A stretch of DNA of 64,000 bases from Muricea muricata (Eukaryota > Cnidaria > Anthozoa > Malacalcyonacea > Plexauridae), in assembly GCA_963855995.1 (NCBI GenBank), contig OY979717.1, forward strand, positions 65,729,855 to 65,793,854. Direction: 5' to 3'. Position numbers and translations under genes: made by a program. Numbering within the stretch: position 1 is the stretch's first letter; every line of letters starts with the position of its first letter. The notes beneath the pieces are model-generated. The model had not been told where the DNA came from, searched no databases, and saw nothing but the letters and a program-made list of their open reading frames with translations. Shown here piece after piece: positions 10,069 through 55,977 of the stretch.

Positions 10069-10480
10069 TGAATAATGCTGAATGCTGCTGAATAATGTTC
10101 GGTTTCTGGGTGTAATTGTCGTTTTCTGGGTTTTCGTTTCACAGTTTTCAATCCTTAAAAATCTTCGTGAAATATTAGCCATCATATCTCAAGATTATTG
10201 TCTCAAGATTAGTGTCACGACTGTTTCCCTACAGAATAAATCACAAAAAAATATCATGCAGAATGGCAATAATTACCGACTTTGTCCCAGTTGTGGGCAG
10301 ATCGCAATATGTTTAACAAATAAATACGGTATATAAAATATCAGCGTTTACAAGTCACAACCATCCTTCGAGAATAAACAATCCTGTAAAAGGTTGCGTA
10401 AGTCGGAAGAACTGGCATAAGTGCCACTATCATGGCTTCCCTAAATTGTTCGAGCTATCAATTTACACTAAGCTCCCCGA
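10069..10480. other. spacer between RTE and Pao remnants, no gene seen
   Basis: AT-rich sequence with no recognisable domain. It may contain the degraded 3' LTR of the Pao element to its right, but I could not match it to the element's other end. Confidence 0.4.
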
Positions 10481-10489
10481 TGGGGAATC

Positions 10490-12072: not shown

Positions 12073-12207
12073 CGATGAACATGTGGCTCCACCATTCCGG
12101 GCGCTAACGATTTCACCTTCGCCTTCGGCAGGTACTTATTCTTCCTGTGTTGGTAATTGAAATTCCGGATCCCAGAGAAAGGACGGATCGCAACCATCGA
12201 GCGTTCT

Positions 12208-12561
12208 CTAGAAGCTGTTTGCGGTGAGTCCTCTTGACGCGTCGTCGGCTGGGTTATCTTCACTTTCCTCGTAGATCCATTGCTCTGGTGACGCTACGTT
12301 CCGAATTTGCTGCATGCGATTTGCTACGAACACTTGAAATCGTTTCGAGTCATTGGAGATGTATCCAAATACTACCTTACTGTCAGTCCAGAATATGCGG
12401 ACGATGTTCGCGTAACTCAGCTCGATGTTAAGCATGGCACTAACCTTAAATGCGACAAGGACGGCTGACAGTTCGAGGCGCGGAATCGTGATATGCTTGA
12501 GTGGTGCAACTCTGGATTTCCCCATGATGAAGGCACGATGAACTTTCTGATCTGTATTCAT
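12208..12561 (-). pseudogene. Pao RNase H region
   Basis: The frame contains MGKSRVAPLKHITIPRLELS, then FWTDSKVVFGYI with the RNase H aspartate, QVFVANRMQQIRN and NPADDASRG. These are the conserved stretches of the RNase H domain and connection in BEL/Pao polyproteins. The 5' side is cut off by the LINE insertion that ends at about 12,592. Confidence 0.85.
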
Positions 12562-12591
12562 TAGACGAATGTACGAGTTGCGTCTGAGAAA

Positions 12592-13628
12592 TGTATGTAT
12601 GTATGTAAAACTTTATTTAAACACTCTAGCCTCGACAACTATTTACAGCTGTTTTCCACGAGGGGCGTCACACAGATATAATATATAGAATACTTATAAA
12701 ATACAACAAAAATAACATAAGCCAATATAAAAAGTTAAAAACTACAGATGCACAAACGTAGATAAGGTGACATATCTAGGTGTAGTTCAGTTCAAAATCG
12801 GCAATCGTATTTTTAAAAGAGGAAATAGAGGCAGCTACCTTCGAATGCTGCGGCAAGCTATTCCATAACTTTGCGCCGTTGTACCCTAGGGTTCGTTTAA
12901 AATATTCAGTTTTTGGGTTAGGCAAAGTTATATCTGTTTGATTGTTTCGCAAATTACATGAAGTTTGGATTTCATTTCTCTTGTTAAACAGTTTTTTTAG
13001 ATTTGGGGCGGAGTGGTCATTGAGAATTTTATGCATCAAAATAGCATTACTTCGAAGACGTCTTTTTTCAAGTGTCTCCCACCCTAAACTTTCCAAGATG
13101 TCTGTAGATCGAGTCTCATAGCTAGCTCCACTGATGACCCTGGCTGCCCTGTTATGACATTTTTTGTAATTTATCTTGCAGCCCTTTGCTACACGTGTCC
13201 CATAATGGGGAACAATAATCAAAATATGGCACTACTAGTCCATTATATATATCTAGTAAAGTTTTTCTGGGAACATAGGGTTTTATTCTCCTCATTATCC
13301 CAATTCCAGCGCTGACCTTCTGGCAAATAGAGTCGATATGGTTATCCCAATTCAGTTTCCCATCCAGTTTAATCCCCAGACAAGTGAACGTTTCGGTGCG
13401 AGGAACTGGAGCATTATTGATTAATACTGGTTTGTCTTCTATCTTACTACTTAAGTTACGCGGAGAACCAATAAACATTATTTTGCACTTTTTTAAATGA
13501 TGTTGCAACTTGTTGCCAGACAGCCAATTGTGAATGTTGTGTAAATCACAATTCAGATTTTCAACCAAAGTATCATAATTGTCTGAAAATGAGGAGATTT
13601 GTGTGTCGTCCGCATAGAGAAAGAGAGT
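12592..13628 (-). mobile_element. 5'-truncated LINE (CR1/L2-like) inside the Pao pol gene
   Basis: The RT catalytic strand (LFLYADDTQISSF, near 13,615) is directly at the 5' truncation point. It is followed by the thumb and the typical C-terminal region (ETFTCLGIKLDGKLNWDNHI, NGLVVPYFDYCSPLWDTC, NCHNRAARVI-type block, LRNNQTDITLP, GAKLWNSLP). Two overlapping frames (13,652-13,152 and 13,222-12,776) show one frameshift near 13,190. The 3' end has AATAAA on the minus strand and a short (ACAT)n tail at 12,593-12,606, as in CR1/L2-type LINEs. The RT tail resembles those at 4.3 and 33.9 kb. Confidence 0.8.
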
Positions 13629-14330
13629 AAATCGCTTCGGAACTTCTCCCATCTCTGACGCATTCTGCCTTGTCTAGGCATAGGTCTTGAAGGATCTGTC
13701 TTCCAGTCAGCAAGAAGGGAGCTGCAAATCCAAGGGGATCGTATATGGAACTTATAGTAGACAAAATGCCACGACGTGTACACGGTTTCAGATGCAGGAT
13801 TATTCGTAGCTTGAAAGAGTCGGACTCAATACACCACTCAGTGCCCAATGTTCGCTCAATAGGAGGGGCGTTGTCATTGGAATCTAGATTCTTCAGATTG
13901 GTTGCTCGATCATCAGGTGATATGGCAGTCAGGACATCTCTTGAATTGGACACGAACTTGTGTAACCTGAGACCACCTCGAGAAAGCATATTCTTTGTCT
14001 TCTGGATCACTGATACAGCTTCTGGCGCAGATCTTAAGGACTTCAACCCGTCGTCAACGTAAGAATCTCGTTTGACGAAATTCGCAATTTCTTCACCGAA
14101 CTCTTGCTTGTTGTCTTCCGCGATAAGCTTCAACCCGTAGTTTGCACAACCTGGTGATGACGTGGCGCCGAAAAGGTGGACAGTCATTCTGTACTCCTTT
14201 GGGTCCTTGGAAACATCTCCGTTTTCCCACCACAAGAACCTCAAGTAATTTCGATGCTCTACATTTACGTGGAACTGGTGGAACCTGGCACGGCAGTCAA
14301 CACGGGGACTACGCGGGGACAGTTTGCGCC
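13629..14330 (-). pseudogene. Pao reverse transcriptase fragment
   Basis: The translation includes MRFLWWENGD, VHLFGATSSPGCANYGLK (motif B region) and the catalytic strand SYVDDGLKS. The downstream block RRGILSTISSIYDPLGFAAP is highly characteristic of BEL/Pao RTs. A block RWEKFRSDLL in another frame just before the LINE junction shows the host frame had already shifted. The segment between here and the RNase H region is missing. Confidence 0.85.
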
Positions 14331-14667
14331 TATCAACAAAGTTAACAAACCGACTTCGACGTTGCTGTGATACGGTATCAATTCAGTCTTAATCCTTTCT
14401 ATTTTCTTTCTTTCTTTAAGGGCGTGGAATCTGCGATCTCTTCGTTGGGATGTCCTTGCAGGAGAACGTTTGCAGAAGTCGAATTTGAGTGCTACGATCA
14501 AAGTCGCTTACCACGAGGCCGTTGACTTTACTGGTCTGAATGATCTCGTTTGCTGCGTTCATAGTAGAAAGGAAAATTTGCGTCGCCTGTCCGTCGACTC
14601 CGAGATTGCTAAGGGTGTTCAAGGAAACAGGTTTAAGTCTTCTTAGATTCACGCTTGAGGTCCCCAT
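14265..14667 (-). pseudogene. Pao gag-pol junction / protease-flanking region
   Basis: Two overlapping frames share a block typical of BEL/Pao polyproteins around the protease: NGLVVSDFDRSTQIRLLQTF, CKDIPTKRSQIPRP, LIPYHSNVEVGLL and LIGANCPR. The Asp-Thr/Ser-Gly protease triad itself is not recognisable. The two frames overlap, which indicates frameshift decay. Confidence 0.7.
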
Positions 14668-15202
14668 GTAAGGATGTTAGATGACTTCTTTTACAGGTTT
14701 CGCATTTCTTTTGCCTTTTGCACTCTCTCGACATGTATTCCTGTACAAGGCATCCAAAGCAGAGCCCCTTCGTTTTGGCGAGGTCCTTCCTTGCCTTGAC
14801 ATCTATAGCCATATAGAGTCGACAAGATTCCAATTTGTGAGCCTTCCCGCACATCGTACAAGAAATTTCTTCGGGTTTTTCCTTATTGGCATTTTCACCG
14901 TCGATCTTGGTGGCCAAAGATCTGGCAGACGCATCGCTGTTCGGTCTTCGAGACGTATTTCTGGAATTTCCGTAGTCCCCATGTTTTCGAAGTACTCTTG
15001 GAATGTTCTCTATCTTTCGTTGGCTTGAGGTAATGGGATCACACACAATGTCTGCTTCGACCACGACATATTGCACAAACTCAGCATAGAGAGGGGATCT
15101 CGTCTTCTCGTTTCTCCCGGTGTACACCTTTCTGCCCCACCTTGTGAGAGCGCACTTCGGCAGTTTGGAAGCCAATTTATGTATCTCTTGATCATCGTTC
15201 AA
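14633..15202 (-). pseudogene. Pao gag C-terminus with zinc knuckles
   Basis: The frame begins like the end of a DUF1759 gag domain and ends with Cys/His-rich knuckles: CTMCGKAHKLESC, CFGCLVQEYMSREC and CETCKRSHLTSLH. The middle knuckle has lost its histidine (CLVQEYMSREC). It is continuous in order with the gag block to its right (15,199-15,540), separated by a frame change. Confidence 0.8.
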
Positions 15203-15540
15203 GAACTCAAGTTTTTGACTCTTTCCATTGCTTTCTCACTGTGTAACAAGAAATCTGCATATTTACGCATTGCCAGTGCATCTTGTGGTGCTACTTGAGG
15301 CCAGGATTCCAATTTTTTGCGAAAAACCGAGGCGACTACGAATGGATCTTCATATCGTTTCAACAACATGTTCTTGGCACTTTGGTAGGCATTTTCACCA
15401 TCCATCAGCATGTATCCCTTTATGACTTCTTTAGCCCCATCTCCGACATTTCTACCAAGAAAATGTAATCTTTCAGTCAGATTAACTGCCCGTATCTCGA
15501 TCAATATTTCAAAGACCTTAAGCCATATTGGGAACTTCAA
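15199..15540 (-). pseudogene. Pao gag DUF1759-like domain
   Basis: KFPIWLKVFEILIE, LTERLHFLGRNVGDGAKEVI, GENAYQSAKNMLLKRYEDPF and VFRKKLESWP follow the DUF1759 gag pattern of BEL/Pao elements. It lies between the coiled-coil N-terminal part and the zinc knuckles. Confidence 0.75.
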
Positions 15541-15669
15541 TGGATCACCATTGAAGACGTCGGGTTTCAGAAGAGGGAGACGGCTTTGGGCATGACTTTC
15601 TACTAGCTGTGATAGAGCTGTGAGATGGGCTTGAAGAATGCTTGGGTTCTCTACATCAGAAGTGGAATT

Positions 15670-16518
15670 TTAAGCCACATTTGCGCTTGTTACGTTAGGT
15701 TGAGTCTGTCCACGCTGACGTAAATCGTTCGCAGCGGGTGATACATATGGATGGACGTCAGGGTTCAACTGTGTGAGAAGTAGTGCATCGGTTGTTTGGT
15801 TTCCCATTACAATAGTAGGTCTAGTCTCTTGGTTGAAAGAAGAGTTGTTATCACGCAAAGGTGTTGCATCTTGTATTGGCTGACACTGGAGGAAATGCTC
15901 CGCACGATCGTGTGTACTATCACAAGGGATTTCTTCAACGATTCTGAATGTCTGTTCTTCGCCTTCAAATCTTGTACAAACCTCCATACGAGCCTCCGCC
16001 TCTACGAGTTCTTCTCTGATCTTAAATCTCTCATCGAAAAGAAGAATGTGTTCCTTAACTCTTCGCTTCTTTATTCTGAATAGCTTGCCGTTTTCCTTTA
16101 ATTTCTTCTAAGACCAACCGATTTTCTTGATCAAATTTATCTCTTTCTTGGGCGACACGCATTTTAGCTTTAAGCACCGCAGTATTTTCTTCCAGTTCCT
16201 GTCTTCTCTGCCTGGTTGAGGAAGTAGTAATACTCTTTGGGGATCGGGAAGAGTAGCTTCGATATGACTTTTGCTGGATCTTCGAGATATCATGGACCGA
16301 TTGTCTTCAGCATCCAATTTTATGTCTCTCATAAGTTGGTATACTTGTTGTACGACCACGTTGTTCTCCTTACTCATGTCTTCACATTTTCCAAACAACG
16401 CAATTTGCTCAACAGGAGATTCAAGTGCGCCCTCCAGTTCTTCATGAGCCATGGTTAGATCTTTCATACATTTTTCCAAGTAGTTTAGGACATGTATATG
16501 AGTTTGTATGCATTTCAT
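15670..16518 (-). pseudogene. Pao gag N-terminal coiled-coil region
   Basis: Two frames (16,518-16,108 and 15,987-15,670) are rich in Glu, Lys and Leu with heptad-like spacing (AHEELEGALESPVEQIALF; MEVCTRFEGEEQTFRIVEEI). This is the usual start of BEL/Pao gag proteins. The assignment rests mainly on position next to the DUF1759 block, so it is weaker than the pol pieces. Confidence 0.55.
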
Positions 16519-16620
16519 TCAGGACAGATAATCTCAACTGCTTTAGGGTAAGTTGACCATGTCGGTCAACATGGTAACGCTGCTTGGACACCAATCCGGG
16601 GCGAAACATCCCAAACTGAC

Positions 16621-16835
16621 CACACCCAAAAACGACGCTTTTACCATAGTGCTATCTACTAAACCATAAAAGCTAAGGTTATTCTGAGGTGCTTATGTGG
16701 TTCAGAGATGGTGCTTATAGGGGTGGTCATTAGTAAGTGTGAAATGTCTAGACATCATATTTCACAAGAAAATGAGCATGCAATAATTGTCATTTATTTA
16801 TCATCTTATTTTCTTCCAGAAAATCATTTCAGCGT
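16621..16835. other. possible degenerate 5' LTR region of the Pao element
   Basis: The sequence lies just outside the possible primer-binding site of the Pao element, where a 5' LTR would be expected. I could not find a second copy near 10.4 kb, so this remains a positional guess. Confidence 0.25.
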
Positions 16836-16839
16836 GAAT

Positions 16840-17400
16840 TCATTCGGAAACAAATCCCTCTACAATTATTCGGGTCACTAGCGTCACCAGATTTATATAT
16901 TGGTACAATAAAACTTTCAGTCCATGAAAGGGGAATTTTCCCTGGCTTAAAATAGTATTGAAAAGACTAGTAAAATAGGAGGGTAACGTTTTGACAGCTA
17001 GTTTAATAATTTTATTTGATAGGGAGTCGTTAGCTGTAGGTTTTTTGTTCTTTAGTTTTTTTATTGTGTAGAGATCTCTTGATGTGTAATTGGCCTATCA
17101 AGTATCGTTCTTTGGAATTGCCCATCGATTATAATCGTGGATAATTTGAGCTTCATGGCTATCCTTATCTGTTTTGAGATTACGTTTAAATTTTCAAAGT
17201 AGTTAAACTATTCAGAAGCTTGTATTTCATTTGTTTAATTTTTGACGATGATTGGTGTAATTTTATCGAGTTCACTAATTTCCAAAACTCCTTGGGGTTT
17301 TTATCAGATAGGTACGTTTTCAATTCTGTCTAACATTGCATTTTCAAATTGTCTTTTTAGTTTTCTAGTTTTTTGTATTCCTTTTTTTTTATAAAAAATA
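16840..17400 (-). pseudogene. LINE fragment: linker and start of RT
   Basis: In broken minus-strand frames the translation reads KNPKEFWKLVNSIK (linker), then pieces equivalent to a K-L-K-x-x-K-A-x-x-x-D block, FVFS-like LFNTILS-like sequence, and VPIYKSGDASDPNNCRGIC, the first RT motif of LINEs. Several stops and frameshifts are present. It belongs to a different LINE from those at 12.6 and 53-56 kb. Neither end could be placed. Confidence 0.6.
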
Positions 17401-17776
17401 TTGACGTTTAAAGGGATCTGTCGGGTACTGTACCAGCAAACTAGCCCAAAACCGCACATTTTTTTAATGCTGAATGAACTTGAATGACTGGTACATATGT
17501 TTGTTGCATATCATGACCATGGTATTGTCAACGTAGGTGATGAAACTCACATTGCATGGATTGCACTCGGCATATGAAATTAACATGACCGAACAAGCCC
17601 CCTTATTCACTCTAAAACTCTACATTTCTCAATCAAGTAGTAGGCTTAGATCAAGCAAAATCTGTTCAATAATTTATACAAGACACTGCAGGGGCTAGTG
17701 CCAGAAATATTCGCCTTACAATTTAATATATGTTTCAATGGTCAACGTGAAGAAACTTAATCAATTTACATGTGCT
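17401..17776. other. spacer left of the Kolobok-like transposon, no gene recognised
   Basis: No domain was recognised on either strand. It may hold the upstream part of the Penelope-like element that resumes at 20,588, but I could not show this. Confidence 0.35.
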
Positions 17777-17780
17777 TTAA

Positions 17781-20583
17781 GGTGGTCATTCCCCTTTAAA
17801 GCATTTTTTTTTATTTTACAAGGTACAGACTCAGCAAAAACATTTTTTTAAGGGGCACAGTGATAAAAATCAAAATCTAAAAAAAATTTTCAGGTTACTC
17901 ATTAATTACACTAATTATCCAATATGGCCGCCCGCTAATTAGCCAAAAAATGGCGTCGCATGAAACATGATACCACACACACCGTTAATCAGAAGAACAT
18001 AAATGACATATATTTTGAAAGCTTATAACATGATCTAGTAACTGACCATCTTTATTTTCACTTTAAAACATTTTTGCAAAAAATTTGGTAAAAAATCTGC
18101 ACATTAGGAAAAAACAGGGATTTTTTACAGCTAATTAGGTAATTAAACCTCATTTATACATTACTAATGAAAAATATGAAAAATTAAAAATGGTCAGTTA
18201 CTAGATAATGTTAAAAGCCATAAACATACCAAGTTTCAACCTTTTACACTAAATATTCAGAAAGATATGCTGTCACAAAGATTAACTGAAATGAGAAAAC
18301 TGTGAAATTGAGAAAATAGTACTTTAATGTTTTGTTCTGGTTTATATAGTCTCTAGAAAGCACCTGCTTCATAGGTAACACCTTCTTGGTCTTCTGTAGT
18401 GTCTATATAGTGTTTTCTTTGGTGCCTCAGTATCTTTCTTCTCTTCTTCACTTGTTCTGAGCTCTTTTTTGCCGACAGTTTTATCCTCGAGTTGTCACAT
18501 TCCTCCGAGGCTTTACCAGTGAAAATACCAGGAGTTACATCAAGGTCCTGAAATAACTTCAAGAAGGAAATGTCACCATCATTAAACTTAAGAATAGCCA
18601 GGTAGGTGGCAAGAGCCACAGTTTCTTGCTCAACATAAGTAGACTTAGGGCATCTGTCCCAGATGAGCCTGTTCAGACACTCGTTAACATTTTGTGTCAA
18701 GCCATGAGTACATTTACTTAGCAGTTCAGATTTGCTAAGGTCTTTGTATACTGGCTTGATCATATCAACAATACAGCTTGGTATTCCATTTTTATGTTTA
18801 TATTCTTCCTTGTCTCTCTTATATCCACACCAACTGTCCTTTCCTTCTGGGCAGAGATGATGCTGTGGATTCTCGGCAGTTGATGCAACATGGTAAAGAG
18901 ACGCTTCTATGGACTTGGCCATTTTACCAACATCATCAAGGTTTTCCCTGATTGCCAAGCCATAATAGTTTTGCAACACATCAATTTTACTGTCAGTCAG
19001 CCTACCTTTACCAGCCAAACCTTTCCCATCAGCCAATTTCACTCCTTTGTTCGAACTCTTCAGTTTGCGTAGACGACTTCCAACCCTTTTTTGAACATGG
19101 CCGATACACTCTAATTTGTTTGGAATAGAATCCTCTCCATATGGCTGGCTTTCAACAATACTGTTATAGGTTGAGGAGTCCCCATCTCCAAGCATGTCCA
19201 TATATTTCAGCCCTCTCGTAGCCACCGACCTTTTAAAAAACCGAACGGCACCAGTTGTCTCCATACTGCCAGCGCTTCCTTCATGATTGATCTTGCATTC
19301 ATGGGATGCTTTCCATGCATTGTAGCCTGGGTCATTAATCTTTTCCCCCCACTTTTGGCATTCTTGGCACTTGTCTGACAACACTTCCACATCCAGGCAT
19401 TTCTTCGTATCCAAGGAGATCACAGTAACAATCCCATTATGGGACGAATATCCTCGCTTCTGCCAAGTACCGTCGATCGACACTCCACATTCACCATCAT
19501 CATTTGCTATTTCATCTCTGACTTGATAGGCATTGTTGATCATACTATCAGAAGCCAACTTCTTTACAGCAGGCAAAACCTTTTCATTTTGGATCTTTGT
19601 GAAGACACGACGGGTTAGTGGAGGAGGCATGTTCATGACCTTGTTGAAGGTAGTCATGGCATTATGCCCTTTGCCAATTTCCCTGAAAGCTAAGACTGTT
19701 CTTACATTCATTTCATAAGAATGACCTTGTTTCTTTGAAGTATTAAAAGAATACTCCCAATCACACTCCATACTTTCACATTGTAACACGAGGTAATTGG
19801 AATATCCACATTTCTTTTTCATGTCAGCATGTGACTTTATATCACATCCACAATCAGGGCACTTCAAAACATTGTCAAATACATTGCATAGTATGGATAA
19901 GTCCATTAAAATAGTTCTTTCTTTTACAGTACTATCAATGTTTTCCGTCATACCACGAAGCAATTCTGTATTCTGGCTGATTTTTTTCGCAGAAGGTCCA
20001 CGATCTTTGTAGCTTGGGCCGCCATCTTGGATTATATTCTTCTTCCTTGACGGTGGTATCTTCTTCTTTTTTCTTGCTCTATTTTTCGAGTTCCCCATCT
20101 ATTCACTCTGAATTACACTCAGAACAACCTTAGGAATGTAATTCTACACTGTAACAACAATATTTCAACTTATAAACGCGAAAAAAACAGCAATTTTCTG
20201 ACACAATTTTTTACACAGCTCGCCACAAATCGACCTCGAGTTTGAGAAGTCAGCGCGTTGCTATGCCTACGAAAATGAACCAATCACAAAGAGATCTACT
20301 GGCATAGCTTTAAATAACATACATCAAAAGTTTAATTCAAAAAAATACGCTTTGTCAGTGAAATAATCAAGCAAATTTGGAAGGAAAACGCGTTGCTATG
20401 GCGTTGCTATGGGGAAATTTTTTAAATAGGGCTTCTTAAACACCTATTTTCTCACAAATATGCATTTTTTCAACAAAACAAGCCATGTTATCTTAAAGTA
20501 TAATACTTAAAGTACCTAAATATATAAATTTTAAAAATTTGATTTTTTTTTCAAAAATTACATTTTAAAGGGGAATGACTACC
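17781..20583 (-). mobile_element. TTAA-flanked DNA transposon (Kolobok/Mutator-like), 2.8 kb, apparently intact
   Basis: The termini are GGTGGTCATTCCCCTTTAAA at 17,781 and, inverted at 20,564-20,583, the same 20 bp with one mismatch. Both sides carry TTAA (17,777-17,780 and 20,584-20,587). A single uninterrupted 581-codon transposase frame lies inside on the minus strand. TTAA duplication with a MULE-like DDE transposase is the combination described for the Kolobok superfamily; piggyBac also uses TTAA but has a different transposase. An internal inverted repeat (TCTAGTAACTGACCAT near 18,034 against ATGGTCAGTTACTAGA near 18,190) lies in the 3' untranslated part. Confidence 0.85.
18353..20098 (-). 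CDS. transposase, Mutator-like DDE fold (Kolobok-type element), 581 aa
   Basis: This single-exon frame starts at ATG 20,098 with a very basic N-terminus (SKNRARKKKKIPPSRKK) that may bind DNA or target the nucleus. A Cys cluster follows (CPDCGCDIKSH, CGYSNYLVLQC). The catalytic region has a first Asp in GVSIDGTWQKRGYSSHNG, a second in DMLGDGDSSTYNSI, a C-x2-H in ECIGHVQKR, and a candidate catalytic Glu in TQNVNECLNRLIWDRCPK. The C-x2-H after the second Asp is known for the MULE/hAT/P/Kolobok group of transposases. The C-terminus is Lys/Arg-rich. No stop or frameshift is present, so the protein could be functional. It matches the uncharacterised Mutator-like transposase family as I recall it; no search was run. 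Confidence 0.85.
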   Translation of the reverse strand: MGNSKNRARKKKKIPPSRKKNIIQDGGPSYKDRGPSAKKISQNTELLRGMTENIDSTVKERTILMDLSILCNVFDNVLKCPDCGCDIKSHADMKKKCGYSNYLVLQCESMECDWEYSFNTSKKQGHSYEMNVRTVLAFREIGKGHNAMTTFNKVMNMPPPLTRRVFTKIQNEKVLPAVKKLASDSMINNAYQVRDEIANDDGECGVSIDGTWQKRGYSSHNGIVTVISLDTKKCLDVEVLSDKCQECQKWGEKINDPGYNAWKASHECKINHEGSAGSMETTGAVRFFKRSVATRGLKYMDMLGDGDSSTYNSIVESQPYGEDSIPNKLECIGHVQKRVGSRLRKLKSSNKGVKLADGKGLAGKGRLTDSKIDVLQNYYGLAIRENLDDVGKMAKSIEASLYHVASTAENPQHHLCPEGKDSWCGYKRDKEEYKHKNGIPSCIVDMIKPVYKDLSKSELLSKCTHGLTQNVNECLNRLIWDRCPKSTYVEQETVALATYLAILKFNDGDISFLKLFQDLDVTPGIFTGKASEECDNSRIKLSAKKSSEQVKKRRKILRHQRKHYIDTTEDQEGVTYEAGAF

Positions 20584-20587
20584 TTAA

Positions 20588-21380
20588 TTTTGATTGCAAC
20601 GTTTTGGCGCAAAAATCCGAATGCTATTATTCACTAAGACACTGTACATTGAAAATCGTTCAAACCACCCACCATCAATAATTAAACAGATTTCCAGATC
20701 TGTTAGCAGGCGAATCTCCTCCTTTTCGTCAGACCAACAATCCTTTGATAATTGTTAACTTCCCTATAAAGGCGCACTCAAGCATAACAACTATGACTCA
20801 CAGTTGAATTATTCCGACAGCTCCTCTACGAAACCACCATCTTCAAAGCGAAGGCGTGCCAAAAATATCATCTGGTACAACCCGCCCTATAGTAAATCAT
20901 CGCTCGCGATTACCTACAACTTGACAAACACTTCCTGAAATCTTGTCTATTGCATAAACTGTTCAACTGAAACACAGTGAAAGTAAGCTACAGATGTATG
21001 CCTAATGTAAAGAGCACCATATCATCCCACAATCAGCAGGTTTTAAATAGGTCAAGAGACAAGGACTACATTGCACTCAAAAAGCTGTAATTGCAGAAAA
21101 AGAATCGAGTGTCCTTTTTATGGCCACCGGCACTTTCTATCCAAAAGTATCGTGTATAAGCTAAAGTTAGTTCAGTTGATGATGGTAGCATGAAAGAATA
21201 CATTGGTATGACGTCGAGTGAATTTAAAGATATAGGTAAAGGAACCACCAGAAATCCTCCTAGTATGAAAGAGAAACGGAGATATCGAAATACATGTGGG
21301 ATCTTAAGAGAAAGCAACAACCTTCAGAATCAAGTGGACGGTTTTAAAACATGTATCTGCGTACAGATCTGGCAGTAATG
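20588..21380 (+). pseudogene. Penelope-like element fragment, RT tail and GIY-YIG endonuclease, left part
   Basis: Broken frames read NRSNHPPSIIKQI, then RRAKNIIWYNPPYSKS, VKVSYRCMP-like sequence, a CNCRKRIECPFYGH zinc-knuckle linker, SIVYKLKL and EYIGMTSSEFK (the GIY-YIG core), then EISKYMWDLKRK. The same order is seen in the better preserved copies at 52.3-57.2 kb. The homology begins at the right edge of the Kolobok-like element and stops at 21,380, at the CACAG terminus of the large transposon; its continuation lies at 30,736. Confidence 0.75.
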
Positions 21381-21850
21381 CACAGCAAAAAGTCGTTTTC
21401 TTATTTCAAGAAAAAAAAAACTTGTTTCAAGAATGTTTTTCTTGAAACAAGAAATTTCGAACTAGGGAGAATAGCGAGAAAAAATTTCTAAGCAAGAAAA
21501 TTTCTAAGAAAATATTTCTCAAAATAAGAAAATATATTTTCTTGTTTTTAGAAAAATATATCTTATTTCAAGAAATTTTAAATTCCTAAAATAAGAAATT
21601 TTATTCTAAACTAGAAAGCGTGAGAAAATTTTTCTTAAAGTGAGAAAACTTTTTACTAATTAACAAGAAATTTAATCTTATTTTGAGAAAAAATAACTTG
21701 CTACAAGTATTTTTTTCTCAAAACAAGAAAATTTTGACAAGGGAGAATAGCAAGAAAAAAAATCTATTTAAGAAAATATTTCTGGATGCAATATTTTCTT
21801 ATTTTAAGAAAAAATAACTTATTTCAAGATTAATTTTCCAAAAATAAGAT
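21381..21850. repeat. left subterminal repeat array of the large transposon
   Basis: Many imperfect copies of AAGAAAAT/ATTTTCTT-type palindromes occur (CTTGTTTCAAGAA, TTCTTGAAACAAG, AAGAAAATATTTCT, ATTTTGAGAAAAAATAACTTG). The same vocabulary fills the right end in inverted sense. In CACTA elements such arrays bind the regulatory transposon protein; that role here is inference. Confidence 0.75.
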
Positions 21851-21953
21851 AATTATGACTGAGCATACAAAACTGATTGATGTTAAAAATATATATAATG
21901 TCAAAGTTCTGGCTTCTACTATACATGTTTACACAATGCAGTACTTATCAAAG

Positions 21954-24900
21954 TCACTTGGCCTCACTCTTGTACTTGCGGTATTGCTTCTCCATGATGT
22001 CGAAATGGTGGGCGATGTCGGCAGGAATTTGTTTATCTCCAAGCACCAACACCTGCAGCATTAACAACCCTAATTCGTGCTGTTTCATGTAATCAAAGTC
22101 CAGCAAATAAAATGATGCTAGGAATGCCACAACGGCCTTTGCCATGTCATCCAATTCAGTTTGGCATAGTATGGTTTTCCCAACAATGATATATACTGTG
22201 TCGTGATCCAGAAGTAGAACAGGAAGGTTGCCAACACGCTTTAGGCAAAAGGAATCTGGATCCTCATGATCCTAAAACAAGAGAAATGTCAGTATATTTA
22301 CTTCAAAATGACACTTTGGCCTGCATACAAACCTACCAATAAGCCCTCCCATCTGATTTACTTTTCAGAAGGGCAAGGTTTTTGTCTTTGTAGTTTTAAT
22401 CCTACCTAAAAACTGGAGACTTGCACTCATCTTCTATAGATTGCACCTGTCCTCTGGATTTATTCTATTTTAATAGCTTTCAAAATACCCACTCGCTCCT
22501 GTTTTGCTAAATTTCACTCAAAATCTACTGTTAACTACATGTATAACTTTAAAAATATATATCCTATTATGCACATCTTGATGTGGATCTACTGATAAGC
22601 CTAGAATAGCAAGCACATTTCACCTAACATGGCATCTTAGTCTGTATCATAACAATGGGCAATAAAAAGTGGAATAGAGATGATTACCTGCAATTCATGT
22701 AATAATTCAGTCGTCTTTTTTACACTCTTCAGTCTTGGAAAGATCGCCGAAAGTTTCTTCAGCACGTGTACAATTTTTGCACCTGTAATATACAATATAT
22801 AACTTAATGTTAATTTTTTATTTTAATTTCCAATCCCCTTTGTGAGCAAGAAATGGATGTTTCTCAAAGGACTCAATCAACAATTGCTTAATCACTCTAA
22901 GGAAGACTCCTAAAGTCCAAACAGTGTAAAACTATATCTTATGTGCAGTAATAATATATTGCAAGTACAGACGTTTTTGAAGTACATACACAGCTTAGGG
23001 CTTCTGGGAGGATTAACTCCCTTACTAATTCCATAAAACACTAAAAAGTCCAACTCTTCAGTTAGTCGACCAACACATTCATTAGCAAACCGGGTGCGTT
23101 CAGTTGATGGAACATTCATGATCCTCCGAGCTTCTTCTATTACCTAAAATAATTCCAAAGCAACCACTTTGAGTGACCACTCACTTTTAATACCATAATT
23201 ATGTAGTTCTAAAGATTAATATCAAGTTCAGGTAATTATTCTATAGCCTGGAAGACAAAGCAGAAAGTTTTTCGTTGTCATTATATCACACTTCGCACTA
23301 TCACCCACTTTTTCTGTACATTTGTTAGGTTACACTTACAGTAATCATATTTTAGTAATCACCTTTAGACAATTTCTTTGTCAAAGGCTGTTAAATAAAC
23401 TACATTAGTTGAGAGGTATTTCATGAACTCCACATATATATAGGAACTTAACCAAAACACATGGAATTTACCAAGATTTAGATTTTGATGTTAAATTTTA
23501 TACTGTACCTCCACATGATCTGTGAAACATGGGTAGTCTTTTAGGATTTTCTGGCATCTTTCCTCTGCTGGAATGATTTTCAGCCATTCCCTTCTCGCGT
23601 TAAACTGTTTGTTGAGATACGCATTCACAATCTCAACATTTGGCTTTTTCTTGTTCATCTCTCTGTCAAGGAGCTTGTAATGTCGTTTCATAATCTCTAC
23701 ATTGTCATTGAGATTGCATGGATTATCAGGTTCTGCAAAACCAATGAAACCAGAAATCAATGCAAATATAAAACATGTGCATTACATGGAAAATAGCAAT
23801 AACAAGAGATGTTCTTGTATCAAATCTGTTGTAGACAACAGTCCAATGGTTTGAAAAGTTATCATAATAAGATTATTTTTGGTCAGAGAACATCTCTTTT
23901 TATTAATGTACCATACCTTTGCCCATAGATAACCTAGTCTCAACCCATAAATACACTGCTGTACACGCATAACTTAGTTCAAACAAGGACATACTAACCA
24001 TCATCAGTAGCATCTTCCTGCTGTGTTTTAGAGGATTCAGCTTGCTCCTCTTGTTCCAAAAACAAGGTTTTCTTTCCGCTTTGGCTTTCTGTCTTCCTCC
24101 TTTTGCTTGGACATGGTCCCTGAGGCTTCTTAGTTGGCTTGCTGTTGCTCAGTTTCCTTTTCAATTTTTTGAACAAATCATTCTAAAATTAAGATTTTTA
24201 AAATTAAAAAACGCATTACAATGAATCTTATTTTTCCCACATTTTTCTCGACTGGTACAATCTGTATGGCCAGGCCAGTTTCACAAATTGGTAAAGAGAA
24301 AGTTAGTATTCAAAATAGAATTTTAGTATTCCCTTGATATTAGGATACTGTACAGTACATCTCAGACCTAGTGTCCCCTGTCATACAAAATTAAAAAGAA
24401 GTACCACATACATGACCAGTATCAGGATCTCTAAGGCATGGATAGGCAATGGTGAGTGACTTTGCCATTTCTTCAAGCTCCATTGTCAAAGGATACCTGG
24501 AGAAGGGTGGATGGGCTGCAGCAGACATCATATTATGAATTGTCCCCCTGACCAGTCTACACTTCAGTTCATTAGACATTTTTCCTGACTTTGAGGCAGC
24601 ACATATTTCTGCATCAACATAAACCGAGTACTCTGGGTGTTCGACTTTTATAGCCTTGAGCTTGGCAGGTTTTGGGGTTGATGCAACAACATTCCTCTTA
24701 ACAATTGATGAACCATCCGAATTATCATCAGACTCAATTAGATCCACATCTACAGATGTTGAAGTACTTGACAGAGAACTTGCCTCTTCAGCCTGTGAAT
24801 AGATATAGGAATGATAACTGATAGTGTACTACACTATACTATACTTACCATTACATTGTTTAATTACAAAGCCATAACTGGAGGGGGGGTTATACATGGA

Positions 24901-26336
24901 GAACATTTTGGTTAAGTAAGTAACCAAGCACTTATTGTTAATTATAAACCAGTATAGTGGTAGAAGACCTGTAAAGTGGGTATAAACGTGCATTAACAAA
25001 CTTCAATACATGGTCAATATGTGACATCAGGTTTAGGTGTTCCATAGGTAACACAAGATATCGATGCAAAATTATTCAGCATTTCAGCCAATTTCAAATT
25101 TAAATCAACAATACGGGGCAGACCTACAAAAATTTGGTGATGTGGTCAGAAACTTTTTAACCTAGAATTTAATTATGGCATCTCACAATCTCAGTCGGCT
25201 GAGTTGTTTGTAGAAAGGCTTTTGAAGTGATTAAAAATTGAATACCTATAAATTGTAAATCTTTGATGGAATTGTGTAGTAGCTCTTTCTTTAGCTCTCA
25301 TTGCTTCAGCTAATCAAGATATACAACTACGGAATCAAGCTGATGAGATGCGTATGATAAATAAAACTTTCACTAACGGTGGTACTGTGCGATTATTCTG
25401 GCAGCTGCAGACTGAGTGCTCTCAACCAAGATTCAAACTCACAGTTCTGAGTTTAAACAGTAAACAAGTCCAAAATATCAAACAAGAAAATGCAGCCATT
25501 GAATAATGAAATTAAAATGTTTCAAAACCGAAAGTGAACAGGCTTCGAGCAATCTAATCCTGTTTGACTTCCACTCTCACTACCGCTACCTTTTCCTGGC
25601 TTACAAGAAACCTGATTGGTTATTTGGGAGGATGAAATGCATCTGATTGGCTAAAAGATAGATTGAGGTCCTGGCAGTAGGACTCAAATCCAAACCTTGC
25701 CAAAATTCAATCAAGTTTTACAGGTAGAATAAGATTGAAATCGTGTTATCGTATATGACATAAAATGTTACTTACTTTTAAATATTTTTTAATAACTTTC
25801 CACACTTTTGAACGTTGGACAATTTTTTTCCCAAACCCAGGGAATATATCCTTCAAGGATTCATAACATAAGGCTTTCCGGTCCTCATCTTCCACAATTC
25901 CAACATCTATATTTCGTCAAGAAACAATTTAAATAATTGAAATATTGGTGAAAAATTGAAATATCAAATACAATCTAAAACTAGATCCCAGTCCCTGTAT
26001 CATAAAACATTTCGCTCAGAATGTAAATTCATACACTCATACTTTTTTATACACTTTTAATAGTATAAACGATTTCATCATGATATTCAAGTATTAGAAC
26101 TGTTATATCCATGCCTTTTACCATGTTTTATCCCCCCTAAACCGATTCTGCACAGAAATACTAACATTTAACGGCTTGAATACTAACTGCGTCGGTTAAT
26201 TTTTAGGCCATGTGAAAAATTTTCAAAGCGCGACCACTTATTTTTAAGCGTGTAAAACATTACCTTTTAATATCTGACCACATTCGACGTCTTCATTGCT
26301 TATTTCGTGAAATAATGAGTCGATTTGGGAAGCCAT
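21954..26336 (-). CDS. eight-exon gene for a 519-aa SAMD3-like uncharacterised protein, inside the large transposon
   Basis: Eight exons with GT-AG introns join in phase: 26336-26264, 25906-25776, 24792-24412, 24182-23999, 23732-23509, 23143-22990, 22782-22688 and 22271-21954. They sum to 1560 nt, or 519 codons plus TGA. Translation starts MASQIDSLFHEISNED. Exon 2 (DVGIVEDEDRKALCYESLKD) may be a SAM-like helical piece. Exon 3 has an acidic, Ser-rich stretch and the block CRLVRGTIHNMMSAAAHPP ... MAKSLTIAYPCLRDPDTG. Exon 4 is basic and nuclear-signal-like (KKLKRKLSNSKPTKK, PSKRRKTE). Exon 5 holds IMKRHYKLLDREMNKKKPN and FNARREWLKIIP. From memory, this block order occurs in metazoan proteins annotated as SAMD3-like; the function is unknown. 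No stop interrupts the frame, unlike almost every other element in the window. Confidence 0.8.
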
Positions 26337-26846
26337 TCTACCGTTTCTGCGTACTTTAAAGTAAAATTTCGGAACTGTCGAATACAAGACAAATGTTGGC
26401 GGTTTCGAACACGCTAAGAAAGAACGCGCTGTAACTTCTCCCAGAATTCCTAGCACTACTGCGTGACCAGTGCGCGTGTCTCGCGTGACCCTGATCTCAA
26501 TACAACACGGTCAACAAAGTAAAACCAGCGTCTTTGTAATGCTTTCACAACTACATCTGCTAGATTGAGATGTCTATTTATGCACAATGTAAATCATAAT
26601 ATCATTAATAAATCCGTTGATTATTCTCTACAGTTACTCAGTTACTCTACATTTATGATTTTTTAAATAAGAGAGGCTAAACTTCTGTGTCAGCGGTAAG
26701 CTTCACACCGCATATTGTCTAGCCTAGCGCATAGGCATTTAGTGATTAGCTTTTGCGCGCCTGGATTGATTCAATATTGTTTACGATCGTGTCTCTGTAT
26801 GCAAAAGCAGAGTGCCACGGTCACAGAAATTCGTAAAATATCATTT
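26337..26846. promoter_or_regulatory. divergent (bidirectional) promoter region of the transposon's two genes
   Basis: The two genes inside the large transposon start back to back. The minus-strand gene starts at ATG 26,336, and the best start of the plus-strand zinc-finger gene is ATG 26,847 (an upstream in-frame ATG lies at about 26,799). About 500 bp separate them, so the promoters must overlap or sit adjacent. The interval is locally more GC-rich than the introns around it. No specific factor site is claimed. Confidence 0.5.
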
Positions 26847-27263
26847 ATGGAAAGTCATATCTCTCAAAATGGGCAAAACACGATTTGGAAATGCTCTCTT
26901 TGTGCTGCTTTTGTCGCCATAACGCTCCGTGTCCTGATGAACCACTATTATACCGTTCACAGCAACGAAGTAAATTTCTCAGTTCGATTGGTTCGATGCG
27001 GTATCAACGAATGCCCTGCGACGTTTAAGCGATACCACTCATTCTACAAACACATAAGAAAAAAACACCACCACGAGTATGAAGGCAAACTGAAGGAAGA
27101 TGTTAACTATAGTCAGTGTGAATCAGATTCCCAATCCCAAATCAACCACGATGATACTGTGGATGATCATGGCTGTAACCCCTCGGAAGCTAGCACGAGA
27201 CATTGCTTATCCACAAATGAAGGGTCGAGTGACAGCAGTTCAGACGACGAAGTACCCCATCAG
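26799..27263 (+). CDS. first exon of a C2H2 zinc-finger gene (transposase-associated type), partial
   Basis: An open frame contains two C2H2-like fingers: CSLCAAFVAITLRVLMNHYY followed by TVH, and CGINECPATFKRYHSFYKHI followed by RKKH. An acidic Ser/Asp-rich stretch follows (STNEGSSDSSSDDEVPHQ) and the exon ends at a GT donor (CAG|GTATAT) at 27,263. The most likely start is ATG 26,847 (MESHISQNGQNTIWKC); 26,799 is an alternative. In metazoan genomes I recall this N-terminal arrangement from large proteins with a CACTA-type transposase core. Here no core exon is seen downstream, only the C-terminal exon at 29.3 kb. It is transcribed divergently from the 519-aa gene. Confidence 0.65.
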
Positions 27264-29284
27264 GTATATATTTTAATGAATCAAATTCACTATATAGTAA
27301 TAACTGTAAAATGTAAACTATTTTGATATAACATATGTTATTTTTATATATGATAGCCAAAATAGACCCTAATAGTCATTATTAGTCCCGAGGACAAGTT
27401 ATTATAATCATAATATTATTGTATATATATAATAAGTATCAAATGTATAATTTGCCTCACTTTCAATTGCCAGATTTACTAGTTTTCAGTGTGCAATGTG
27501 ATTGATTTTTAGTGCAAAGTTTCAAAGAAACTTTGCAGTATTGTGATGAGTGGCGAAAATTCAAATCAGTCAGGCAGTCAGTCAGTCAGTCAGTCAGTCA
27601 TAGTGTAAACTCCGGGGGGTGGTGAAAATTTTGAATATGCCACCTGATTGCTTGAATGTTACTATTGCAATGTTTTAGTTAAAATTATAAGGATTATTTA
27701 TAAAACATTGTATGCTGTTATTCATACAAATGAAAAACATAGGTAAATGAGCCATATGGCAACTAATGAGCGTAGTAATTTTATTGCAGACATGTATATA
27801 CAGTGCTCTCAAACTCCCCCGGAATTTAAAATATTCAACTAAGCACGTGTATATTGCGTAGCGCCCGCTTCCGTTGCTAAGCAGAGGTCTAGGAGTGGGA
27901 TAATAAACATGAGTTAAACATGTATTTCCACGGCTTAAAAGCACCATTTTAACTGGCAGGACAAGATTTTTTAATCTTCAGACTATTATGCTTTCGTTTA
28001 TTATGCATAGAGAGCGATTTTTCGCCTTAAAACGAGCTCAAATGGACAGCATAAATTGACCTATATGGTATGAATATATATGGCTAACAAGAGATATGAG
28101 CTATAGTCTGAATACATAGCAATAAATACACCGCAATATTTTCGCTATTCTACGTCTTATATTCCTAAATATACACCACATGAATTGCAGGAGTTTTGTT
28201 CTACATTTCGGCAAGGCTTCATCAGAAAATGATGAAAAACAAGCTAGATGAAGCGAAATCGGCATATTTGATAATGTTGCGTGCGTGCGAAATCAGTTTC
28301 TGCAAGGTTGTAATGTGATGACTGATGATTGTGTTCATAAAATTTCCAATAATACAAGTAGACCTAAAGTAAACCGTACATAAGTATACTAAGTGAAGAT
28401 ATTGGCCTAATATTGTGATAGTTTTTTATTAACACACAGAAGCAGCGCACAGTTTGTATGTTTACAATCTTAGTTCACGTTCAGTATTAATTGCGCGTTC
28501 ATTCCGTTTTGTTTATATGAGTCTAAGGTCAGAGGTCAGAGATTCAGCAAACGCGAAACCGAATATGCTCGCTAAACATGAAAATTATAAAATTATTTAT
28601 CAGAGTATCTAAAAACATCCCACGCAAACAAAACGCTTTTAGACCACATCATTTTAACATTTTATTTCCAAAGCTATCATTAAATTTTTCTTAGTTTTTC
28701 GAGCTTAAGTGTGTAAGTCTTTTCAGAAACTTTGCACTATCCTTGGATCCCTAGTTGTTGTCTAAGTGGCCCCACTCAGTAGATGCACTGTTAAAATATA
28801 GTTGTTCTTGGATTTATTTTATTTTTTATCTAATTTTGTGGGGGAATGAAGATCTACAAAGGGTAGGGGCCAACTACATTCTAAAGGTGAAAGAACGAAA
28901 CAAAATTACACAGGTACGGTAATAAAATTAATATAATACCGGTACACATGTATGGCTTGCATATGGATATAGTGCTCATCCAGATGCTTTCACTTACAAC
29001 CCAACAATCTTTGTTGTAAAATCTTGCTTTGGTTTGTTAACTCAGTTAAACATGCTGGAAAACCCTGATTGCCCTATATAATTTCAGAATCAGTAAAATT
29101 TGACAAAAATGAGTACCCGGTACTTTGGCAGTGTTCAGCACAGTACAGTTATTAGAGATCCTGTATTTCTTTTCCAGTTAGTTTAGAGTTTCAGACATAA
29201 GAGAGAATAACCTGTGAGTTGAAGTCCCCTCTTTTCATCAGAGCGAAAATATGGTGTCCTGAACTGTGCAAATGAGCTTTCCAG
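27264..29284. other. interior of the large transposon lacking a transposase core
   Basis: Between the zinc-finger exon and the C-terminal exon I see no frame that resembles a CACTA/EnSpm transposase. A (CAGT)n microsatellite lies at 27,568-27,600. A possible exon remnant after an AG near 28,190 (LRACEISFCK in one frame) is too short and broken to call. The simplest reading is an internal deletion or strong decay of the core. Confidence 0.5.
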
Positions 29285-29720
29285 AAAATCACTTAGATCG
29301 AAACTGGACATGTTTGGAATGATTCCTGGAGTAGAACTTCAGAATGTGTACCGTACCAGCTGGGTAATATGCCACGAAACAAAATTTTGTAAAGGGGGTT
29401 TTATTATGTACAGTGTTAACGAACTATTAATGTTACCCATTTTTGCATCAATTAGGGAAATCTGGGTTATCGGTGACTTTATCTATTTTGAATGTCTGCC
29501 ATTCGAGACCCAATGTTTCAGTAATACATACCAAGCATATCAAATTAAAGAAAATTCAACTGAATCTGGACACATCATCTCTGCTTACGAACACCTGGTT
29601 GACTACAACATATTTCACGTACATAAAGACTGTTTAAAGGATCTGTACATTTCAGTGAAGTATGACATTAAAGATTTGATGATACAGCATCTCAAAGGAT
29701 GTAACCCATTGAAATCCTAG
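29285..29720 (+). CDS. C-terminal exon of the zinc-finger/transposase-type gene, partial
   Basis: The open frame ends at a stop at 29,720. A candidate splice acceptor (CTTCAG) lies at 29,338, just before NVYRTSWVICHETKFCKGGF; another lies near 29,284. The sequence continues IREIWVIGDFIYFECLPFET and NTYQAYQI. This resembles the C-terminal segment of the large metazoan proteins that begin with the C2H2 block seen at 26.8 kb: a short pattern of tryptophan and valine strands followed by a Tyr/Phe-rich end. The match is from memory. If correct, exons 1 and last of one gene survive while the middle is gone. Confidence 0.55.
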
Positions 29721-30302
29721 ATTGGTGACTGTGAGTACAATGGATATATGACAATTTTACATACTTTTCTAACTTAATAAACATATAGTTTCTATGTATT
29801 TTATTAAAATTTACATGATGTGATTTGTACTAATTTGTGCTTTATAATTTTCACTGTTATCTAACTATCCACTGTTATCTAATTACGTCACAACTACGTG
29901 GGGACGAGCGAATGGCCCCTCAGCCTCACTTCTACGTAGTTCTGACTTAATTACCGGAAAGGTCTATTTGTCTTGTTATATATACAGTAGCAAGTATCAA
30001 AGTTCAATTTTCCTGTTTTGCAATTGGACAAAAGCGTATCACGTGTCGGTTTTCAAAATTCCATGTTTATACTGCGTGCTTTATAGCAAGGATGCAACCA
30101 TATATAGTCAATGAGTCGTTTATTCGCCGGTCAACAATAAAAAAGCGATGAAGTGCGTATGCGACGACTGAAAATTCCAAAATTCTAGTTAAAACTTTCG
30201 AGATGCAAAAACCAGCAAGTGGAATGCTTTTCAATTGTAGACCGATGCTTTTCGATTGCTTTTATAGATTGTTCACTTGTATATCAATGCCTACATTATC
30301 AG

Positions 30303-30735
30303 TATAGAATTTTATTTCTAGAAAATGTTGCATATTTCTTATTGTAAGAAAAAGTATTGCCAAGAAAACTTATTTATATTTTCTTATAATGAGAAATATA
30401 CGTGTATGTTTTCTAGAATTTTTTTTCTTGTATGTAAGTTTTTTTTCTTAAAATGAAGAATTTATTTTCTTGTTTCAAAATATCACAATTCTAAAAATGT
30501 GTTTTCTTGTTTCAAGAAAAAATATTCTTATCAAGAAGGAATGTTTTCTTATTTCAAGACATTTTTTTCTTGTCTAGAAAAGGCTATTTTTCAGACCAAG
30601 AAAAATTTCTTATTTTAAGAAATTGACGTCTTGGGAAGTGTTTTTTTCTTATAATAAGAATTATTTTCTTATCATAAGAAATTATTTCTCAAATCAAGTT
30701 TTTTTTTCTCAATAAGAAAATGACTTTTTGCTGTG
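30303..30735. repeat. right subterminal repeat array of the large transposon
   Basis: Dense short inverted repeats such as TTTCTTATTGTAAGAAA, TTCTTGTTTCAAGAAA, TTCTTATTTCAAGA and TTCTTATAATAAGAA. These mirror the array at the left end. They stop at the terminal CTTTTTGCTGTG. Confidence 0.75.
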
Positions 30736-30900
30736 TGGTGCAACATGTGCATCGAGGAGAAGCTTTAAATAATGCTGAAACACAAGAAAATCCTGCTGAA
30801 TAGAAGGTCTGAGATATTTGCGAAGTGCAGACTTGGCTGAACGATTTAAACGCATGCACGAACAGTAAACTGCTCGTCAGCAAACTGTAGATCACGAAAT
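30736..30900 (+). pseudogene. Penelope-like element fragment, GIY-YIG C-terminus, right part
   Basis: The frame starting at the transposon edge reads CNMCIEEKL, then MLKHKKILLNRRSEIFAKC. In the copies at 52.4 and 57.1 kb the equivalent blocks are CNLCLEEKLLIM and LLNKRSELFTLC. The left part ends (RSGSN) at exactly the matching position, so this fragment was continuous with 20,588-21,380 before the 9.36-kb insertion. One stop follows the EEKL block. Confidence 0.75.
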
Positions 30901-31009
30901 AATGTAACGAGTTGAGCTATAATTAATCGTTTGATGATCGCCCATGTACAGCCGTGAAACTCTGAGTAGCGACTATATTTGTAATTTTAAATATATATAT
31001 ACATATATA

Positions 31010-31813
31010 CAGGGTGTATCAAAAAAAACGGAGCCCATCTTTTGTGTCAAATTATTTCGAAATTACTGAAGCTTATAGCACAGTTTTGGACTTGTTTTAA
31101 ACCACGTTCTTTTCTCTTTCGAACAAGCCGTAATTCGTATTTTTACTCCCAGTAACGTATGTGCTATGACAAATTTAGTAAAAGCTATCGATTTGAGATG
31201 CCTTCCAATTATGCAAATTCACTATGTCTTTCATGGTAGTCAGTTAAATTTTTATTTTTTCGCTTATTACATAAATGGTATTTCTGTTAAACTTAATAAA
31301 ACTTGTTATAAAGCTTTACAGAAGATAACGGACCGTTAACGTGCACTACGAACGGATAGTTCAAGCTTGTATCGACTTCATGAATATTAACATTATGCAA
31401 TTTCGACAACATTGTGCACGCGCGGATAAACAAAACGCTATTTTCGAGCATTATTTTGGCATAAATCTAAGGTTTTTGTTGATGTAAACGGTCCGTTATC
31501 TTCTGTAAGGCTTTATAACAAGTGTTATTAACTTTAACAGAAATACCATTTGTGTAATAAGCGAAAAAATTAAAAATTTAACTGGCGACCATGAAAGACA
31601 GTGAATTTGCATAATTGGAGGGCATCTCAAATCGACAGCTTTTACTAAATTTGTCATAGCACATACGTTACTCGGAGTAAAAATACAAATTACGGCTTGT
31701 TCGAAAGAGAAAAGAACGTGGTTTAAAACAAATTCAAAATTGTGCTATAAGCTTCAGTAATTTAGAAATAACTAGACACAAAACATGGACTCCGTTTTTT
31801 TTGATACACCCTG
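31010..31813. mobile_element. mariner-type foldback MITE, 804 bp
   Basis: The ends are CAGGGTGTATCAAAA at 31,010 and TTTTGATACACCCTG at 31,813, flanked by TA on both sides. Inverted arms of about 330 bp (31,010-31,339 and 31,487-31,813) enclose a 147-bp loop; the inner ends include GATAACGGACCGTT and AACGGTCCGTTATC. CAGGGTGT... termini at a TA are typical of mariner-like MITEs. It has no coding capacity. Its right end abuts a long (TA)n tract. Confidence 0.85.
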
Positions 31814-32912
<1,099 letters not shown>

Positions 32913-55854: not shown

Positions 55855-55977
55855 GTGGCCAATTTTAAATCCCTTAAGTTTTGGATATACTCTTTTATTC
55901 TCGGATCTATCATGATCACTTGTTTGATTGAGTGGGCCTGTGCAATTTCTATTGACATCATTGTTAACTTTTACTAG

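Follow-up and report, generated by a model that had tools for sequence, protein, structure and literature searches.

The locus considered here raises the question of what interrupts the remains of a Penelope-like element (PLE) in a 64,000-nucleotide stretch of the Muricea muricata genome (contig OY979717.1, positions 65,729,855–65,793,854; hereafter, the window), and what the two genes of the interrupting block encode. A preliminary description made from the window had proposed a CACTA/EnSpm-like transposon, and this class is borne out by the ends of the block, 2-bp target-site duplications (TSDs), catalytic motifs in relatives, and a profile match to Transposase_21 proteins. The 9355-bp block is very probably a recently moved, internally deleted CACTA/EnSpm copy, inserted into a decayed PLE with duplication of TG. 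The ends, the TSD, the empty sites, the multi-copy family, and the loss of the core are observed, as are transposase homology and catalytic motifs in the relatives, and selection on both genes. The window copy is non-autonomous, because its catalytic core is deleted and it cannot supply its own transposase. Searches covered the 453-Mb assembly (74 contigs, with the window on contig C2); counts of search rows are lower bounds, and several rows may come from one locus. Coordinates of the features are given in Table 1.

Table 1. Features of the window element and its host PLE, and copies and relatives elsewhere in the genome (TIR, terminal inverted repeat; positions refer to the window unless a contig is named).
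Feature	Position	Strand	Length	Basis or remark
Whole element, non-autonomous CACTA/EnSpm copy	21381..30735	+ (transposase gene taken as +)	9355 bp	ends, TSD, genome matches
Left TIR, CACAGCAAAAAGTC	21381..21394	+	14 bp	exact
Right TIR	30722..30735	-		exact match to left CACAGCAAAAAGTC
TSD TG, left copy	21379..21380	.		directly outside end; empty-site alignments
TSD TG, right copy	30736..30737	.		directly outside end; empty-site alignments
Left subterminal region, rich in TTTCTTRT/AYAAGAAA	21381..21840	both orientations	outer 460 bp	motif count
Right subterminal region, rich in TTTCTTRT/AYAAGAAA	30296..30735	both orientations	outer 440 bp	motif count
Host PLE relic, left part, GIY-YIG region, frameshifted	20917..21378	+		tblastx; empty-site matches
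Host PLE relic, right part	30738..30897	+		joined-flank reading; empty-site matches
Transposase first exon, C2H2-like zinc-finger motif, then GT donor	26847..27263	+		74% amino acid identity over 68 residues to C1b exon; Met position
Internal deletion junction, catalytic core gone	29225..29227	+		3 bases common to both sides
Transposase C-terminal remnant	29223..29720	+	165 aa	63% amino acid identity to residues 557–731 of C1b transposase
Partner gene E1, earliest exon found	24412..24792	-		splice signals; dN/dS; at least 40 genome rows
Partner gene E2	23999..24182	-		splice signals
Partner gene E3	23509..23732	-		splice signals; at least 41 genome rows
Partner gene E4	23026..23143	-		donor chosen among three in-frame options
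Partner gene E5	22688..22782	-		splice signals
Partner gene E6, last exon with stop	21954..22271	-		splice signals
Insert private to window copy, inside transposase intron	27510..28754	.		no counterpart in C14, C1a, C65 at same point
C3a copy			2812 bp	both ends
C3b copy			9073 bp	both ends; core-deleted
C1a copy			~18.3 kb	both ends, last 3 bp missing
C14 copy			25,884 bp	both ends
Small copy	C2:3192076-3193122		~1.05 kb	both ends, from search rows only
C65, chimaeric copy			8572 bp	two left-type ends facing each other, inverted; right end absent
C1b relative	contig C1		7566 bp	72–77% relative
C8 relative			~10.0 kb	more distant

The proposed borders at 21381 and 30735 hold to the base, with an exact 14-bp inverted repeat and TG directly outside on either side. 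The termini are CACAG...CTGTG, in agreement with the 5'-CA(C)..(G)TG-3' form of CACTA/EnSpm elements; the same termini are seen in six further elements (C3a, C3b, C65, C14, C1b, and C8), and the C1a copy has lost its final 3 bp. Matching 2-bp TSDs are present at six of the seven loci whose termini are both complete and readable, hence with C1a excluded: TG in the window, CA in C3a and C3b, TA in C65 and C14, and AT in C1b. With a chance of 1/16 per locus, six or more matches out of seven have a probability of about 4e-7 (hand arithmetic). The short TSD of CACTA/EnSpm elements is thus found here as 2 bp, and paralogous empty sites show it as well. The subterminal regions are packed with repeats, as had been described: the outer 900 bp contain 20 copies of the motif TTTCTTRT, whereas 300 dinucleotide shuffles contain 0.73 on average and never more than 5; the 8455-bp interior has four. 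Arrays like these, in which a short motif stands in either orientation, are a feature of Spm.

The element belongs to a multi-copy family. In the genome, at least 76 rows match the 400-bp left end, and five of these (window included) are 99–100% identical over all 400 bp; the 400-bp right end has at least 50. Five other loci carry both window ends and measure ~1.05 to 25.9 kb; one of them is known from search rows only. C65 was rejected as a carrier of both ends, its right terminus being a left-type end turned round. In shared stretches the divergence from the window copy is 0.59% for C1a, 0.63% for C3a, 0.54% for C3b, 0.84% for C65, and 3.6% for C14; since the copies differ so little, the family probably moved recently.

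The insertion site was assessed with a 320-bp query in which the window flanks were joined, leaving out the element and one TG. It yields 20 rows in the genome: the two own flanks, 14 rows crossing the junction (three of them nearly full-length at 79–80%), and four not crossing it. As 14 of the 20 rows match the joined flanks across the junction, the window empty site is real, and the nesting in a PLE proposed earlier is upheld. Convincing PLE empty sites elsewhere in the genome show 74–82% nucleotide identity, and the five of the 14 junction-crossing paralogues that were aligned base by base are all continuous through the site. The GIY-YIG region is likewise continuous across the empty site, and both flanks belong to one PLE unit rather than to two unrelated copies. 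The joined flanks read ...RSGSN / CNMCIEEKL..., as had been claimed, but with a one-base frame slip, which is ordinary divergence beside the site, since the paralogues run through the junction. By tblastx, the left flank matches PLEs in short pieces; the GIY-YIG label comes not from the relic but from PF01541 in the related copy at 56.6–57.1 kb (E 0.00031, just under the curated cut-off). For the C1b relative, four of the seven rows of an analogous query cross the junction, two of them over all 320 bp at 93–95%, the third to position 292, and the fourth by 14 bases only. A rearrangement or assembly join, with ends matching by chance and two unrelated PLE pieces at the flanks, could draw on the frameshifted state of the relic and on the frame slip; it is hardly conceivable, however, given that PLE paralogues are continuous through the junction, that the slip amounts to one base of ordinary divergence, and that these ends are found at other loci, flanked there by separate TSDs.

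The preliminary description had taken its empty-site test from PLE copies at 52–57 kb of the window, regarded as intact. The empty site is genuine, but these copies are distant from the flanks (about 36–73% amino acid identity in short tblastx pieces) and paralogues elsewhere fit better, so the genome paralogues replaced them as the decisive comparison. Nor are the copies intact: a non-LTR (long terminal repeat) reverse transcriptase at 53769–55977 on the minus strand (RVT_1, E 1.2e-32) sits between the PLE pieces at 52.2–52.8 and 56.3–57.1 kb, hence these are likewise interrupted or rearranged. The insertion of the CACTA element did not disrupt a gene, since the PLE was already a frameshifted relic.

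The plus-strand gene is recognizable as a transposase gene through its relatives. The window copy keeps the zinc-finger exon and the last ~165 residues, with nothing in between. In C1b the zinc-finger exon is followed by an open exon of 731 aa (amino acids). C14 likewise keeps its zinc-finger exon, its 731-aa transposase exon is free of interruptions, and another element has inserted just upstream of the transposase start; over the relatives, the exon spans 723–731 aa. The deletion of the core measures about 1.77 kb relative to C14 and about 1.24 kb relative to C1a. The first-exon motif matches zf-C2H2_4 of Pfam below the cut-off only. Matches to the C1b transposase comprise at least 70 rows, which merge into 49 loci. 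We aligned six transposases, C1b and five at 50–73% to it that were chosen for open frames from 70 rows: D166, D259, E523, C280-x2-C283, and H499-x3-H503 are invariant in all six, i.e., the pattern D, D, E with C(2)C and H(3–4)H is present in every aligned relative and absent from the window copy, whose core is deleted. In a profile comparison with five of the genome's own Transposase_21 proteins, the six transposases match over 400 columns (probability 98.2, E 4e-14), D166, D259, and E523 being aligned opposite D203, D294, and the E of FSFERY. The Transposase_21 core expected in fuller relatives is found by profile comparison, but not as a Pfam Transposase_21 match. The ratio of replacement to silent substitution rates (dN/dS) between the C1b and C14 transposases is 0.084, at a dS of 1.9, near saturation. 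A sequence search of PDB with the C1b transposase gave no match.

Searches of the window element itself gave little: a six-frame Pfam scan produced two matches far below the cut-offs, one to a C2H2 finger (E 0.22) and one to an unrelated family (E 0.4). A tblastn search with 12 Transposase_21 proteins from this genome, where such proteins account for at least 57 rows, gave no match in the window. The missing Transposase_21 match was considered as evidence against CACTA, and this was overturned by C1b, which shows the core deletion: the window lacks the match because the core of its transposase is gone.

On the minus strand, six exons (from 24792 to 21954) with suitable splice signals can be spliced without loss of frame into an open sequence of 439 residues that runs to a stop codon; its product is here called the partner protein. 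Exons 3 and 4 have other possible donors that would also preserve the frame, and no start exon was detected. The two divergent multi-exon genes of the preliminary description are thus a six-exon partner gene and a plus-strand transposase gene. Exon 3 rows (at least 41) correspond to 39 loci. For 25 of these a transposase locus is found no more than 25 kb away, and 23 are head-to-head with it, where random placement would give 0.56% per locus. This excess indicates an arrangement that has been kept, not one that arose many times, as the layout is shared by descent. Exon 1 rows (at least 40) fall, by eye, largely at the same places. The C8 element contains all six partner exons in the same order, with 37–67% amino acid identity, and also the zinc-finger exon. 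Between the window and C14, the partner gene shows 19.5 silent and 8.5 replacement changes (dN/dS 0.113, dS 0.073), and no stops are seen in the compared codons of C14, C1a (71 skipped), C3b (2 skipped), and C65 (81 skipped); judged by these codon comparisons, the gene is under purifying selection. The protein matches no Pfam family, and a PDB sequence search gave one match (E 0.23) and no usable relative; vertebrate and cnidarian proteins annotated as SAMD3-like may resemble it.

Several observations weigh against the reading of the block as a CACTA/EnSpm element with two constrained genes of its own. C8 has no TSD, although both its termini were read, and its transposase frame contains stops. 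Beside this element (oriented positions 1–1000), three CTGTGATCGAT sites stand at an exact spacing of 323 bp; C8 may lie within a satellite array, which could account for the missing duplication. The three youngest partner-gene pairs have dN/dS of 0.49–1.56 with 6–7 changes each, and are uninformative alone. Fourteen of the 39 exon 3 loci have no transposase match within 25 kb (C3b, whose core is deleted, is among them), and the 23 head-to-head loci, which include the family's own copies, share their layout by descent and are not 23 independent events. C1b has no partner gene, hence an element has been able to move without it. Finally, Pfam Transposase_21 is matched neither by the five other relatives at E <= 1 nor by C1b at E <= 5, and the Pfam signals in the six transposases are sub-threshold: DUF4218 in all six and Plavaka in three.

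The last point would suit another lineage of the CMC group (Mirage, Chapaev, Plavaka, or ESTA) instead of EnSpm proper, as would the signature D, D, E, C(2)C, H(3–4)H, which is common to all these lineages according to PMC12730594. We regard this as improbable: the CAC..GTG ends are combined with mixed 2-bp TSDs (TG, CA, TA, AT), whereas ESTA is defined by TA TSDs and the PlavakaA and PlavakaB ends are TGT..ACA and CATCA..TGATG, respectively (PMC12730594), and the match to the Transposase_21 profile extends over 400 columns. This comparison covered Plavaka and ESTA, through the ends and TSDs described for them. That the partner protein matches nothing in Pfam, and that C1b lacks its gene, might alternatively mean that both genes are captured host genes carried as transduplicated cargo. 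This is very unlikely, as elements that have diverged strongly still show the head-to-head pair at many loci, the order of the six exons is unchanged in C8, the one divergent element read whole, and the plus-strand gene is a CMC transposase in the relatives. The block is hence best read as a deleted CACTA/EnSpm copy with transposon genes of its own.

In such an element, the transposase, built of a zinc-finger exon followed by the D, D, E exon, would bind and cut the CACAG ends and duplicate 2 bp of the target, so that the element would move by cut and paste. The window copy, if still moving, would borrow transposase from elsewhere, e.g., from a C14-like copy with an open transposase exon. Its core may have been lost by faulty gap repair after excision, which is suggested by an internal loss with just three shared bases at the junction. 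The subterminal repeats may serve as binding sites. TnpA of En/Spm has an end-binding role, and plant Spm needs a second protein. The partner protein could bind the ends or act in regulation, in the manner of plant TNPA; this putative TnpA-like function is a tentative assignment, though the likeliest guess, and is prompted by a constrained gene that lies beside the transposase and by motif arrays at the ends. More speculative, and rather doubtful at present, is a two-component animal CACTA clade, in which the transposase is accompanied by a separately transcribed head-to-head partner of an undescribed family that would bind the TTTCTTRT arrays, control transposition, and persist intact without the transposase. 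If so, copies without transposase but with an intact partner might regulate or repress the family. This animal CACTA family is young, its many copies range from full-length to deleted and short, its ends are exact, empty sites occur naturally, and a conserved partner gene is present; it is well suited for testing whether CACTA transposons of animals depend on a second protein. Copies without transposase but with an open partner gene allow one to ask whether the partner alone regulates the family.

Individual copies contain further insertions. The insert present in the window copy alone has TIR-like ends, TAGTGCAAAGTTTC / GAAACTTTGCACTA, that enclose 27510–28739 and leave its last 15 bp outside; the enclosed span is likely a miniature inverted-repeat transposable element (MITE) inside the transposon. 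C1a carries a 9.26-kb nested element (oriented positions 9206–18464 of the joined stretch) with TACGGTGGCCCACAACGGC inverted ends and a 6-bp duplication AAAAGC; these TACGG ends enclose a 389-residue open reading frame (ORF), which we take to resemble an IS3EU transposase, and further ORFs. C14 carries a 15.3-kb foldback element (oriented positions 9186–24499) with a 7-bp duplication ACTTGAT and two ~5.5-kb arms of 95% identity, whose short tandem repeats code for IGFIGT/KPIVPI runs in several frames; its own ORF is present twice, in opposite orientations. Both were rejected as cargo, their own ends and duplications marking them as separate insertions. They are independent, yet lie within ~50 bp of each other (element positions 5381–5428, window ~26761–26808), 40–90 bp upstream of the transposase start at 26847, in an intergenic stretch that may be an open promoter region.

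On another contig, the clade is represented by three near-identical transposase relics (C53:39722-41881, 81843-84002, and 117304-119463), ~42 and 35 kb apart, possibly as a segmental repeat. Just left of the PLE relic, the window contains an uninterrupted 581-aa Mutator-like transposase ORF (18353–20098, minus strand; PF20700, E 6e-70), and directly right of it a foldback pair (30974–31851) with arms of ~350–370 bp at 92–93% identity. A long BEL/Pao-like retrotransposon ORF, recognized by eye, lies at 42295–46530 on the minus strand.

The elements described here form a new family of the known CACTA/EnSpm superfamily (CMC group), probably within EnSpm proper. For this clade, PMC12730594 names the C(2)C and H(3–4)H motifs and gives fungal EnSpm CAC..GTG ends with 3-bp TSDs, and the wider clade CA..TG ends with 2–5 bp; EnSpm derivatives have been described in zebrafish (PMC3485254). 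The preliminary description had held two-gene animal CACTA elements to be poorly known. For an opposite-strand partner gene in such an element, no description was found in the literature searched, weak evidence in that Repbase reports were not covered; multi-protein animal CACTA elements, however, have been published, so that a second protein is not new in itself. The SmTRC1 paper (PMC1636069) reports animal CACTA elements with 2-bp end repeats, truncated copies, and insertions into other repeats, the proteins SmTRC-PrA, PrA2, and PrC from alternatively spliced transcripts, CCC ends suggested for animal TRCs, and four alternatively spliced products, TnpA–D, of En/Spm.

Like SmTRC1 and the animal TRCs, the present family has a CMC-type transposase, short TIRs, and 2-bp repeats at the ends; it also includes truncated copies of various lengths, shows insertion into another repeat, and encodes more than one protein. 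It differs in its CACAG ends, in a transposase too diverged for the Transposase_21 model, and in that the second protein has its own opposite-strand gene instead of arising by splicing of one transcript. The Transposase_21 elements of the same genome have the same catalytic motifs, but with ~20% identity to this clade they form a separate group. Similar to maize dSpm, the window copy has lost its transposase by internal deletion while the ends and subterminal repeats stay; unlike dSpm-type derivatives, it is large (9.4 kb) and keeps an open partner gene. With En/Spm TnpA, the partner shares its place as a second element-encoded protein beside the transposase, and the presence of subterminal arrays that it could bind; it is, however, encoded on the opposite strand as a gene of its own, and the likeness drawn here is one of layout.

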